Shown here: one piece after another, positions 37,462-60,275 of the stretch
How the letters are laid out: every line of letters starts with the position of its first letter
Numbering within the stretch: position 1 is the first letter of the stretch
NCBI GenBank assembly: GCA_905478925.1
Contig: CAJQKQ010000005.1
Location: forward strand, 1-64,000
From: an uncultured Verrucomicrobiales bacterium
GTDB lineage: Bacteria > Verrucomicrobiota > Verrucomicrobiia > Verrucomicrobiales > Akkermansiaceae
DNA: 64,000 nucleotides
Direction of reading: 5' to 3'
Made by a program: the position numbers and the translations under genes
Notes under the pieces: generated by a model
Databases searched by the model: none
Seen by the model: only the letters and a program-made list of their open reading frames with translations
What the model was told of the DNA's origin: nothing

Positions 37462-38064
37462 ATGAAAATTTCCACATACACCGGCGGCATGGTGCAGACG
37501 AACGGCTATCTGGTGGAGACCACGGAGGGAAATTTTCTCGTCGACGCGCCTGCGGGGATCACTTCCTGGCTGGATGAAAAGGGGATACGGGTGGATGCGC
37601 TCTACCTGACGCACCAGCATTACGATCATGTGGAGGATGTGGCGGCGCTGCGTGGAAAAGGAGTGAAGGTGTATGCTTGGGCGCCCTACTCGAAGGATCT
37701 CACGCTGGAATCCTACGGATCGAGTTGGGGCTTGCCGGAGGTTGCGGATTTTCAGGTGGACGAGCTGATCGTGGAAGGGGACGGGAAGATGTTCGGCACC
37801 GCCGTGAAGGTGGGTCATGTGCCCGGTCATTCTGCGGACAGCCTGACGTTTTACGTGCCGGCTGAGGGGCTTGTTTTCGCGGGGGATGCTCTTTTCGCCG
37901 GCTCGGTTGGCCGCTGCGACCTTCCTGGCGGCGATTTCGAGCTGCTTCTTTCCGGTATACGGAGGGAGCTGCTGACGTTGCCAGAAGAAACGAAAGTTCT
38001 ATCCGGTCACGGTGGGGCGACAACGGTGGGCCGCGAGAAGGTGAGCAACGGCTATCTCAAGTAG
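37462..38064 (+). CDS. Metallo-beta-lactamase-fold hydrolase (glyoxalase II-like)
   Basis: 200-residue binuclear metal hydrolase. The metal-binding motif is LTHQHYDHVEDVAAL, with later ligands in VGHVPGHSADSLTFYVP, FAGDALFAGSVGRCDLPG and VLSGHGGATTVG. The fold and spacing are like small glyoxalase II-type enzymes, but the substrate is not determined. AGGAG lies 11 bp before the chosen ATG. Element copy A (mobile_element at 38086) begins 21 bp after the stop codon. Confidence 0.9.
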   Translation: MKISTYTGGMVQTNGYLVETTEGNFLVDAPAGITSWLDEKGIRVDALYLTHQHYDHVEDVAALRGKGVKVYAWAPYSKDLTLESYGSSWGLPEVADFQVDELIVEGDGKMFGTAVKVGHVPGHSADSLTFYVPAEGLVFAGDALFAGSVGRCDLPGGDFELLLSGIRRELLTLPEETKVLSGHGGATTVGREKVSNGYLK

Positions 38065-38085
38065 AAGGATATATCATTCCTAAAT

Positions 38086-38343
38086 GAGTGTGATTTTTAT
38101 CGATGTTTCACACACGGTAGGGCTGATCCGGCTCGGTCAGCCCACTTTAAAAATCTAGCGACCCGTCTCACCCACACGGAAGTGAGATCCCGGGGGAAAT
38201 GCAGTGTCTTGGCGTGGCTTCACTCCCTTTCCGGAGATACGGCGCTTGCGTTTTTGATCAGGGTCGACCGAGCCGGATCAGCCCTACCATGATTGAATGG
38301 GCTTGGGCTGCCTCAGGCGAATACACCGATAAAAATCACATTT
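38086..38343 (+). mobile_element. MITE-like element, copy A
   Basis: 258 bp. Terminal inverted repeats: TGTGATTTTTATCGATGT at 38089-38106 and ACACCGATAAAAATCACA at 38323-38340, one mismatch. Flanked by a perfect 9-bp direct repeat TTCCTAAAT at 38077-38085 and 38344-38352. Subterminal inverted repeats GGTAGGGCTGATCCGGC and GCCGGATCAGCCCTACC lie at 38117 and 38288. It codes for no transposase. Starts 21 bp after the MBL hydrolase stop, between convergent genes. Confidence 0.9.
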
Positions 38344-38504
38344 TTCCTAAATCGGCAGTTCGGATCGGATTTTTCACCACAGAATCGTAAAGGTCGCAGA
38401 AGGAGTCGGAGCCGGGCTTGAGTTTGGGAGTTGGGATTCGAAGAAACGGAAAAGGCACGCATTTTTCCGCCGGGTGATGCAGTTTTTCACTGCGGAATAT
38501 GGGG

Positions 38505-44330: not shown

Positions 44331-44375
44331 AGTGATGCAAAGAACCTGCACCGCACCGTGCGGTGAGACAAGGGC

Positions 44376-44630
44376 GGGTGTGATTTTTATCGGTGTATTT
44401 GCCTGACGCAGCCCAAGCCATTCAATATTGGTAGGGATGATCCGGCTCGGTCAGCCCTGATCAAAAACGCAAGCGCCGTATCCCCGGAAAGGGAGTGAAC
44501 CGATGGCAAGACACCGCATTTCTCCCGAGTTCTCACTTCCGTGTGGGTGAGGCGGGCTGCCAGATTTTTGAAGTGGGCTGACCGAGCCGGATCAGCCCTA
44601 CCGGGTGAAACACCGATAAAAATCACACCC
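44376..44630 (-). mobile_element. MITE-like element, copy B (inverted)
   Basis: 255 bp. Terminal inverted repeats GGGTGTGATTTTTATCGGTGT at 44376-44396 and ACACCGATAAAAATCACACCC at 44610-44630, a perfect 21-bp match. Direct repeats GACAAGGGC (44367-44375) and GACAAGGGT (44631-44639) match at 8 of 9 bases. Interior is the reverse complement of copy A. Begins 29 bp after the nuoK stop and lies upstream of recJ. Confidence 0.92.
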
Positions 44631-44659
44631 GACAAGGGTGGAAGCCCATATCGGAGGGT

Positions 44660-44980
44660 TCAGCCCTTCAGCGAGACCAGTTCATCGGTGTGGATGGTCT
44701 GGCGGGCGCGGTAGAGGGCGACGATGATCGCGAGGCCGACGGCGACCTCGGCGGCGGCAACCGTGATGACGAAGAAGACCAGCATCTGGCCATCGTAGTC
44801 GGGGAGGTCGTTGGCGGTGACCTTGAAGCGGGAGAAGGCGACCAGGGTGAGGTTCGCGGCGGAGAGCATGAGCTCCAGGCACATGAAGACGATGATGATG
44901 TTGCGGCGGAGCACGACGCCGGCGAGGCCGATGGAGAACAGGAGGCCGGAGACGAGGAGGTAGTCGTTGAGCGCTGGCAT
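44660..44980 (-). CDS. nuoK: NADH-quinone oxidoreductase subunit K
   Basis: Small membrane subunit of complex I. 106 residues with three membrane helices; the conserved glutamate lies in [20 protein letters not shown]. The last nuo gene here: nuoL, nuoM and nuoN, which usually follow, are missing, and a MITE-like element and recJ come next. The start codon is preceded by a heptad tract rather than a Shine-Dalgarno sequence. Confidence 0.96.
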
Positions 44981-50345: not shown

Positions 50346-50768
50346 ATGAAACTACTACTAACAGCGTTCTGCGCAGTAATGATCACGTCACCTCTGGCCT
50401 TTGCCGGCGACAAGTGCGAAAAGAAGAAGTGCGATAAGGAGAAGGAAGAGGCCACCATGCTCGCTGGAAAAGACTGCGACAAAAAGAAGAAGTGCGATAA
50501 GGAGAAGGAAGAGGCCACCATGCTCGCTGGAAAAGACTGCGACAAAAAGAAGAAGTGCGACAAGGAGAAGGAAGAGGCCACGATGATTGCTCATTGCGGC
50601 AAATGCGGCAAATGCAACAAAGGCAAAGACGGAGCCAAGTGCGACAAGTGCAAGAAAGCCGGTGAAAAAAAGAAAAAGGAAAAGGAGGGCACCATGCTCG
50701 CTGGTAAGAAGTGCGACAAGAAGAAGTGCGATAAGGACAAGGACAAGGAAGAGGCAACTCTCGCTTGA
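50346..50768 (+). CDS. Secreted Lys/Cys-rich repeat protein
   Basis: 140 residues, no family recognised. A signal peptide (MKLLLTAFCAVMITSPLAFA) is followed by three copies of a 21-residue unit built as CDKEKEEATMLAGKDC then DKKKK, and by a CGKCGKCNKGKDGAKCDKCKK cluster of the same composition. The tail has a further related copy. CxxC spacing suggests metal or disulfide chemistry and the charge suggests polyanion or nucleic-acid binding; both are inference. A strong terminator follows 33 bp later, so it is a defined single-gene unit. The 63-nt repeat is nearly identical at DNA level, so copy number can change by slippage. Confidence 0.75.
   Translation: MKLLLTAFCAVMITSPLAFAGDKCEKKKCDKEKEEATMLAGKDCDKKKKCDKEKEEATMLAGKDCDKKKKCDKEKEEATMIAHCGKCGKCNKGKDGAKCDKCKKAGEKKKKEKEGTMLAGKKCDKKKCDKDKDKEEATLA
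50429..50617 (+). repeat. 63-bp tandem repeat in the Lys/Cys-rich gene
   Basis: GTGCGATAAGG recurs at 50429 and 50492, and GTGCGACAAGG at 50555, each 63 bp apart. Copies one and two are nearly identical; the third diverges after the first 30 bp. The unit equals 21 codons, so the frame is kept. Confidence 0.9.
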
Positions 50769-58623: not shown

Positions 58624-59454
58624 ATGATCGGCATCGGCACACGGGCAGAGCTCACCATCCTTCGCGAGAAACCCGTTGGGGTTTTCCTCGATGCGGAAAA
58701 CCTCGGTGAGATTCTGTTGCCCCGGCGGGAGATGCCGACGGAATGGGCGATCGGCGGTCAGGTGGACGTTTTCATTTACCTCGATTCCGAGGACAGGTTG
58801 GTCGCCACACTCAAGAAGCCCCGCGCTATTCCCGGGGAGTTCGCGAAGCTCACCTGTATCGCCGTCACGCCGGTCGGCGCGTTCCTCGACTGGGGTCTTC
58901 CGAAGGATCTCTTGGTTCCCTTTCGCGAGCAGAAGACCCGCATGGAAGTCGGGAAAGACTATCTCGTTAAAGTTCTCGTCGATGAGGAAAGCCAGCGCAT
59001 CGTCGCCACCACCCGCATCGCCCGCCACATCGACGTTACGCCCGCTAACTTCGCCACTGGCGATGAGGTCGATCTCATCGTTTATGGAAAAACCCCGATG
59101 GGCTACAAGGCGATCGTCGACAACACCCACACCGGCCTGATTTTCGCCAACGAGGTATTCCAAGAACTCGCCCTAGGCGAAAAGCTCAAGGGCTGGATTG
59201 CTGGCGTCCGCGCCGATGAGAAAATCGACCTTTGTCTCCATCCCCCCGGCCGCACCCGCGTCGATGACCTGGAGAAACAGATCATGGGTGAACTTATCGC
59301 CCGCGGCGGTTTCTGGGCGCTCACCGACAAAAGCCCGGCTGAGGAGATATACAGCGAGCTAGGGGTCTCAAAGCGCACCTTTAAGCAAACCCTCGGGGCA
59401 TTGCTGAGGAAGCGCCTCGTCACGAAGACGGAGACGGGGATGCGGCTGAATTAG
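58624..59454 (+). CDS. cvfB: CvfB-family S1-like RNA-binding protein
   Basis: 276 residues. Successive S1-like beta domains (ELTILREKPVGVFLDAENLG, LTCIAVTPVGAFLDWGLPKD, LIVYGKTPMGYKAIVDN) are followed by a C-terminal winged-helix part (FWALTDKSPAEEIYSELGVS, TFKQTLGALLRKRLV). This is the CvfB/YitL layout, a family of RNA-binding regulators known from Staphylococcus and Streptococcus. The target is unknown here. MITE-like copy C begins 15 bp after the stop codon. Confidence 0.88.
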   Translation: MIGIGTRAELTILREKPVGVFLDAENLGEILLPRREMPTEWAIGGQVDVFIYLDSEDRLVATLKKPRAIPGEFAKLTCIAVTPVGAFLDWGLPKDLLVPFREQKTRMEVGKDYLVKVLVDEESQRIVATTRIARHIDVTPANFATGDEVDLIVYGKTPMGYKAIVDNTHTGLIFANEVFQELALGEKLKGWIAGVRADEKIDLCLHPPGRTRVDDLEKQIMGELIARGGFWALTDKSPAEEIYSELGVSKRTFKQTLGALLRKRLVTKTETGMRLN

Positions 59455-59469
59455 AGTATAAAGACCACC

Positions 59470-59662
59470 GGGTGTGATTTTTATCGGTGTTTCTCACACG
59501 GTAGGGCTGATCCGGGGGGGGCAGCGTCTTGCCGTGGGTTCACTCCCTTTCCGGAGATACGGCGCTTGCGTTTTTGATCCCGGCCGACCGAGCCGGATCA
59601 GCCCTACCATGATTGAATGGCTTGGGCTGCGTCAGGCGAATACGCCGATAACAATCACACCC
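59470..59662 (+). mobile_element. MITE-like element, copy C (internally deleted)
   Basis: 193 bp. Terminal repeats GGGTGTGATTTTTATCGGTGT and CGATAACAATCACACCC. Perfect 9-bp direct repeat AAGACCACC at 59461-59469 and 59663-59671. Same orientation as copy A. About 65 bp of the interior are missing, starting after GGGCTGATCCGG at a GGGGGGG run. Lies 15 bp after the cvfB stop, between convergent genes. Confidence 0.9.
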
Positions 59663-59720
59663 AAGACCACCCAAGACCTTCTCATGGATGCCTGCGGCGC
59701 CCACAATAGGCGGAGTGGGC

Positions 59721-60275
59721 TTACTTCCGCTTGCGCGTCTTTCTCGCTTCGAAATCGACGGATTTGATGTCGAATTTTTCAGGCTCGTAGCCGGGATTTG
59801 CCCACTCGATCTCACCGGCGAGGGCCTGCATGAACTGGAAGGATCCGCCGAAATCCTCGGGAGGGCAGGCGCGTTCCCCGGCGATCATCTCCGGCTCGCC
59901 TTCGCCTTCTGCGCGTTTTTCGAAGACGACCTCGTGAATCCATTCGTCGGCGAAATCGTAGCGATAGAGCATGCGAAGCGGCAGGCGTTTGCGACCCATG
60001 TAGTCGGCGACGGTGAGTTTTAGCTCGTCCTGGAAATCGCCGAGTGTTTGATCCTGCAGGCCGACCGGGCCGATGACATCGACAAGGCGCTTGCCCTTGC
60101 CGTGGCGGAACTCGTGGGGGTGCTTGTTTTCCCAGCCCATGGCGGCCTGGATCGCGTCACTGAGCTGCAGGAAGGTGACGGAGGTGGAAATGGAGAACTG
60201 CCTCCAGACCTTTGGTTGGATGCCATAGGTGAAGATTTTCACAATCACCCTTTCCGCTCCGCTTTTATTTGCCAT
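59721..60275 (-). CDS. Plasmid pRiA4b ORF-3-like family protein
   Basis: 184-residue protein of the pRiA4b ORF-3-like family. Typical opening VIVKIFTYGIQPKVWRQFSI, then FLQLSDAIQAAMGWENKHPH and YRYDFADEWIHEVVFEK. The acidic segment IAGERACPPEDFGG near the C-terminus is also family-typical. Function unknown; members occur on chromosomes and plasmids and are often near mobile DNA. Convergent with cvfB, separated by MITE copy C. Confidence 0.88.
   Translation of the reverse strand: MANKSGAERVIVKIFTYGIQPKVWRQFSISTSVTFLQLSDAIQAAMGWENKHPHEFRHGKGKRLVDVIGPVGLQDQTLGDFQDELKLTVADYMGRKRLPLRMLYRYDFADEWIHEVVFEKRAEGEGEPEMIAGERACPPEDFGGSFQFMQALAGEIEWANPGYEPEKFDIKSVDFEARKTRKRK

Follow-up and report, generated by a model that had tools for sequence, protein, structure and literature searches.

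A MITE carrying a GTAG-type REP doublet in a Verrucomicrobiales genome: avoidance of start codons and a moderate excess behind stop codons

The window analysed here, a stretch of 64,000 nt from an uncultured Verrucomicrobiales bacterium, contains three copies of a short repeat, each 15-29 nt behind a stop codon. By their anatomy the three copies are MITEs, and their interior is a doublet of inverted REP sequences. Genome-wide, the bias towards stop codons is real but moderate. The clearest signal in the placement of the family is a gap before start codons; the pattern is probably due for the most part to selection. We regard it as reasonably probable that a composite MITE inserts with little choice of site and is lost by purifying selection where it lands before starts.

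Copy A (38086..38342, forward strand) is a full-length element of 257 nt. Its left REP, GGTAG followed by a bulged hairpin, is at 38116..38143 (forward) and its inverted right REP at 38261..38288 (reverse). The target-site duplication TTCCTAAAT occupies 38077..38085 on the left and 38344..38352 on the right, the latter starting one base past the assumed end of the element. Copy B (44376..44630, reverse strand) is also full-length (255 nt), with the left REP, in element orientation, at 44575..44602 (reverse), the inverted right REP at 44430..44457 (forward), and a perfect target-site duplication of 8 nt at 44367..44374 on the lower side and 44631..44638 on the upper side. Copy C (59470..59662, forward strand) is flanked by AAGACCACC at 59461..59469 and 59663..59671. 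An internal deletion of ~64 nt has reduced it to 193 nt and truncated its left REP (59500..59515, forward); the inverted right REP is at 59581..59608 (reverse).

The gene upstream of copy A encodes a metallo-beta-lactamase-fold (MBL-fold) hydrolase (37462..38064, forward; PF00753), copy B follows nuoK (44660..44980, reverse; PF00420), and copy C follows a cvfB-like gene (58624..59454, forward; PF13509 and PF17783). The stop-to-copy distances given in an earlier note on this DNA are correct: 21 nt for A (TAG), 29 nt for B (TGA) and 15 nt for C (TAG). The gaps that hold copies A and C are convergent: the stop codon of the opposite gene is 162 nt (A) or 58 nt (C) away. The opposite gene at C (59721..60248, reverse; PF07929) has an uncertain start, a longer open reading frame reaching 60275. 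Because both gaps are convergent, whether A and C share the orientation of their gene hinges on the gene taken as reference; copy B is the only one in the window whose match involves no such choice. Elsewhere in the window, a gene at 50379-50768 contains exact 63-nt internal repeats encoding a lysine-rich stretch.

The assembly of this genome comprises 3.8 Mb in 145 contigs and is 94% complete. A search with the 19-nt end of the terminal inverted repeat (TIR), allowing up to three mismatches, returned 77 matches in it (39 on the forward and 38 on the reverse strand), against none for the reversed pattern. The copy list combines this search with a first pass that scored 40 of 89 candidates. It contains 52 element places, of which 27 are two-ended and provide our main counts; wider counts use 42 copies, after places at contig edges or with other interiors had been dropped. 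Tandem core arrays without TIRs (contigs 42, 11, 59 and 108) are excluded from all counts. The two-ended copies end in the terminal inverted repeats GGGTGTGATTTTTATCGGTGT. When the element ends were free to slide by 2 nt, 19 of the 27 had a perfect target duplication of 7-11 nt, mostly 9 nt, and three more had one with a single mismatch; the 9-nt targets have no common sequence evident by eye. At 193-279 nt (n = 27), these copies have no room for a transposase gene. A typical full-length element measures ~255 nt, and copies diverge from the consensus by ~5%.

Identical or similar ends enclose other interiors at four loci (L066 3807-4041, L067 3692-4027, L069 3971 and L172 2312-2544), and the end sequence thus serves several MITE types. 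The same unit of TIRs and doublet is found in a second species (L116), with an apparent 8-nt duplication by eye, and in one-sided form in L114. We infer that a DDE-type transposase moves the MITE, although the gene itself was not found. TIR patterns revealed no autonomous partner in this or the genus genomes: 14 regions around single TIR-like matches contained no TIR pair, and the fetched loci had no TIR pair 330-3500 nt apart. Transposases of the IS256 and IS1595 types (PF00872, PF12762) are absent from the 145 contigs of this 94% complete genome. Viral contigs gave no match to the TIR, and Rfam gave no match within the window.

Each end of the doublet consists of GGTAG and the bulged hairpin GGGCTGA-T-CCG-GCT-CGG-TCAGCCC, so that a GTAG tag adjoins a short imperfect palindrome, as in GTAG REPs. 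We aligned 49 distinct REP sequences from the fetched loci, out of 51 selected from 63; the two 28-mers left out looked like chance matches. Six of the ten hairpin pairs have changed on both sides. Two-sided changes fill 13 cells, compared with 2.8 in shuffled alignments, and none of 500 shuffles reached this number; sliding the hairpin partner abolishes the covariation. In three of the other pairs the changes are confined to one side, and the last pair departs only through unpaired cells.

The REP is present in 19 of 61 genomes of the genus. Relatives carry a ~172-nt doublet that is bounded by GGTAGGG...CCCTACC and frequently retains part of a MITE end on one side. Full-span doublets of this kind occur in six of seven genomes compared, and also in G004; the seventh genome, G022, has a diverged full-span match (75%). 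Two inverted REPs dispersed as a single unit are a trait of REPINs. None of 56 PF01797 loci, a subset of the matches with fetched flanks, had a RAYT gene flanked by this REP, and many of these loci encode long proteins that are perhaps not RAYTs.

Two kinds of array were seen as well. The doublet forms tandem arrays without TIRs in the genome of the window (L037, L043, L041, L040 and L013, on contigs 42, 11, 59, 108 and 115), with a period of ~230-303 nt and several at contig ends; the array in L013 starts within a TIR-bearing copy. Genome G082 contains dense arrays of the REP-like GGTAGGGCGGATCCGGCCCG, mostly on one strand, in a cassette-like region (contig 4 1-16000, locus L122; contig 4 33168-48312; contig 13 25225-29982), where they alternate with small genes and runs of GATCACC-like repeats. 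The small genes resemble PIN-type and DUF433-type toxin-antitoxin genes.

We analysed placement with genes from our own simple hexamer-model caller, which is not a standard one, a caveat that concerns starts above all. Pfam support (E<=1e-5; 20 proteins beside 16 copies) was obtained for 9 of 10 neighbours in divergent gaps and for 5 of 10 mostly stop-proximal ones. None of the 27 two-ended copies lies within 40 nt of a start codon, where 6.5 were expected (P=5e-5), and the shortest distance from a start is not under 44 nt. Inclusion of truncated copies gave 1 of 42 in this zone, compared with 11.3 expected, and among unique sites of the REP doublet in relatives the count was 0 of 26, compared with 3.0 (P=0.03). 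The empty zone before starts speaks more for the loss of unfavourably placed copies than for targeting.

The excess behind stop codons is smaller. Of the 24 two-ended copies outside the window, 8 are found between -10 and 35 nt from a facing stop, compared with 14.9% of random intergenic points (binomial p=0.019); the remaining 16 either lie at a greater distance or face no stop. Conditioning on each copy's own gap gave 8 against 3.0 expected (P=0.003), or 14 of 39 against 6.0 (P=0.0001) when truncated copies were included. With the start zone removed, the expectation for the 24 copies rises from 3.0 to 4.2 and the excess remains (P=0.018). Selection at starts alone is therefore insufficient, and the small remainder could reflect targeting, transcription-linked access or a benefit of the element in the 3' UTR.

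The genome-wide map of copies that the earlier note had proposed as a check thus yields a weak excess near stops, but it does not extend the finer regularities of the window. The orientation shared with the upstream gene at A, B and C recurs in only 10 of 16 cases outside the window (5 of 8 among the near-stop copies), and we rejected it as a rule. A tight distance of 15-30 nt had to be given up as well, since only 4 of 24 outside copies fall at 10-30 nt, against a null of 8.4%. These results bear on whether the three copies are simply three draws from a broad distribution, with their common feature picked out by the reader. The feature was indeed selected after the data had been seen, and only 5 of the 24 outside copies are both stop-proximal and same-oriented. 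The stop excess and the start gap are nevertheless significant without the window copies, and we consider chance a very improbable explanation.

A transposase that prefers sites behind genes, attracted for instance by terminator hairpins or by the topology of the DNA that follows a transcribed gene, would account directly for the near-stop excess within the copies' own gaps, with or without truncated copies. The copy in L025 (4488-4744) has split a strong terminator-like hairpin and occupies its loop; the empty site would fold with -37.7 kcal/mol on one strand. More generally, folding at <=-20 kcal/mol is predicted for 8 of 27 empty sites; the corresponding share is 11.9% for random intergenic positions and 19.9% for positions near stops. 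Set against this, the empty sites of near-stop copies fold no better than near-stop controls (p=0.15), the 9-nt targets lack an evident shared sequence, and roughly a quarter to one third of the stop excess is lost once the start zone is taken out. The distribution over gap types also argues against such a preference. The 24 outside copies occupy 15 tandem, 8 divergent and 1 convergent gaps, and random intergenic points fall 51%, 31% and 17% into these types; divergent gaps, between two starts, are therefore occupied at the random rate. Terminator hairpins as the main target were rejected, as the empty sites are only slightly hairpin-rich. The suggestion in the earlier note that the transposase targets 3' ends is thus weakly borne out at best, and we judge a preference of this kind unlikely.

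A different possibility is that the element is favoured behind genes, where it could supply the upstream transcript with a 3' hairpin that protects or terminates it. The predicted fold of copy A is very strong (-131.9 kcal/mol, z=-9.05), that of copy C has z=-3.77, and the REP pairs covary. The covariation would be equally expected from recognition by a REP transposase, and orientation to the gene is not fixed (the 10 of 16 given above). A scan for intrinsic terminators, defined as a GC hairpin plus a T run, found no site at A, two at C that lie outside the element, and one small hairpin at B, at the element junction. Of the terminator-like 3' UTR proposed previously, the strong fold stands, but no intrinsic terminator was found inside the element. 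A selective benefit of this kind appears quite unlikely.

If copies before starts are lost by selection, those near stops might be older. Mean divergence is 0.052 for near-stop copies, 0.054 for far copies and 0.064 for copies in divergent gaps, and the near-stop copies do not differ from the others (p=0.43). Near-stop copies are not older, and loss over time is therefore not directly seen. Retention of stop-proximal copies, the other proposal of the earlier note, is still the better supported one, given the empty start zone and the sharing of near-stop sites between loci described below.

In the relatives we considered 39 places with a doublet of at least 110 nt, taken from chosen loci and thus a selection rather than a full census. 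Leaving aside two at contig edges, we merged the remaining 37 by flank homology into 26 independent sites; one further site, in L111, is interrupted by a large insert into pieces shorter than 110 nt and is uncounted. The doublet is within 35 nt of a stop at 12 of the 26 sites (null 12.9%, p=3.5e-5) and within 10 nt at 10 (null 4.4%, p=8e-8). Conditioned on each site's own gap, these figures become 12 against 9.45 expected (P=0.09) and 9 against 5.8 (P=0.02), the count being 9 rather than 10 because one locus was taken per site. The stop excess in the relatives thus largely reflects location in convergent gaps, which argues against targeting. Of the 8 sites that are shared, recurring in loci with homologous flanks, 7 are near stops, as against 5 of the 18 remaining sites (p=0.009); the shared sites include one pair duplicated within one genome, plus its relative. 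At two related gene-flanked sites in one genome (listed under L112 2072-2243 and 3503-3674, L136 2980-3150) the doublet lies 3 nt behind the stop, and the gene end and the doublet have apparently been duplicated together.

At 5 of the 26 independent sites the TAG of the REP is itself the stop codon of the gene. One of these genes is holA, which has a match in 54 of 61 genomes, with the 3' end read in 30. The doublet follows AGG-TAG in G066, G075 and G082 and, in diverged form, in G080. The three nearest relatives that have no doublet (G004, the genome of the window and G022) also end in AGG-TAG, and the gene ends in TGA in 22 of the other 23 genomes. Since the doublet-free nearest relatives share the AGG-TAG end, the doublet most likely inserted behind a GG-TAG stop that already existed; its loss from those three relatives is a less simple alternative. 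A second stop-overlapping site, behind a glycosyltransferase gene (L106/L125), has a relative in the genome of the window that ends in TGA with a different tail. A native TAG is therefore seen at one of the two stop-overlapping sites with testable relatives.

The holA site raises the possibility, which we put forward tentatively, that stop codons are landing sites: the doublet would insert immediately 3' of an existing GG-TAG by single-strand transposition, and an unrelated DDE vehicle would carry the doublet as well. In that case tag and stop would be the same letters and the gene would remain intact, and one repeat would have two independent routes of movement with two insertion rules.

The composite MITE with little site choice and loss before starts remains our preferred explanation. 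The family consists of short non-autonomous MITEs with GGGTGTGATTTTTATCGGTGT as TIRs, a 9-bp target duplication and a REPIN-like GTAG-type REP doublet as interior. A putative DDE-type transposase would paste the element with little choice of place, and purifying selection would remove insertions in genes or within ~40 nt before starts, as suggested by the count of 0 of 27. The surviving copies would then occupy promoter gaps beyond 40 nt and, somewhat above chance, positions behind stops; the window would merely happen to hold three stop-proximal ones. The doublet also occurs in relatives without full ends, often directly behind stops, and its placement at holA is what may be expected of a TnpA_REP/IS200-like single-strand enzyme acting beside GTAG. 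If this explanation is right, the clustering of mobile repeats behind genes can arise largely from selective removal before starts, and the exclusion zone of ~40 nt before starts is measurable. One doublet in two vehicles would make targeting and retention separable, and the empty holA site would make the origin of stop codons supplied by GTAG REPs testable.

For REPINs and their RAYT transposases we refer to Bertels and Rainey 2011 (PMC3116915) and Nunvar et al. 2010 (PMC2817692). The doublet resembles REPINs in that two inverted REPs make up one mobile unit (PMC3116915, PMC2817692). Y1 transposase genes are likewise abundant, being present in 41 of 41 genomes of the genus, but unlike in REPIN/RAYT systems this REP flanks a RAYT gene at none of the 56 loci. 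Cleavage by TnpA_REP is guided by GTAG (PMC8266576).

Close parallels exist with the GTAG REPs. According to Di Nocera et al. 2013, these are located <20 bp from the 3' ends of genes, in tandem as well as convergent gaps, and provide TAG stop codons; Verrucomicrobia (O. terrae) are mentioned there for their wealth of GTAG repeats (PMC3733652). Our repeat shares with GTAG REPs and their dimers the GTAG tag, the short palindrome, head-to-head doublets with conserved spacers, the location behind genes and between convergent genes, and the terminus that supplies TAG stops. Its spacer is ~116 nt, compared with 20-100 nt in most GTAG dimers. It differs from the dimers presented there in that the doublet is also carried within a TIR unit with 9-bp duplications. 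A. variabilis GTAG-15 and H. neapolitanus CGTC-1 are similar too, each being a REP dimer framed by a long conserved inverted repeat; frames free of REPs were not found for them, and the frame was interpreted in that paper as a palindromic target (PMC3733652). The frame here is instead MITE-like, with 9-bp duplications, and similar frames enclose other interiors (L066, L067). We found no report in the open-access literature searched of a REP doublet between MITE ends with target duplications. Bacterial MITEs such as MITEAba12 (PMC6382973) resemble our element in being short, having TIRs and target duplications and occurring in many copies; what sets our element apart is the REP doublet as interior. 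REPs behind genes are thus already known; what is new is the vehicle of TIRs and target duplications around the doublet.
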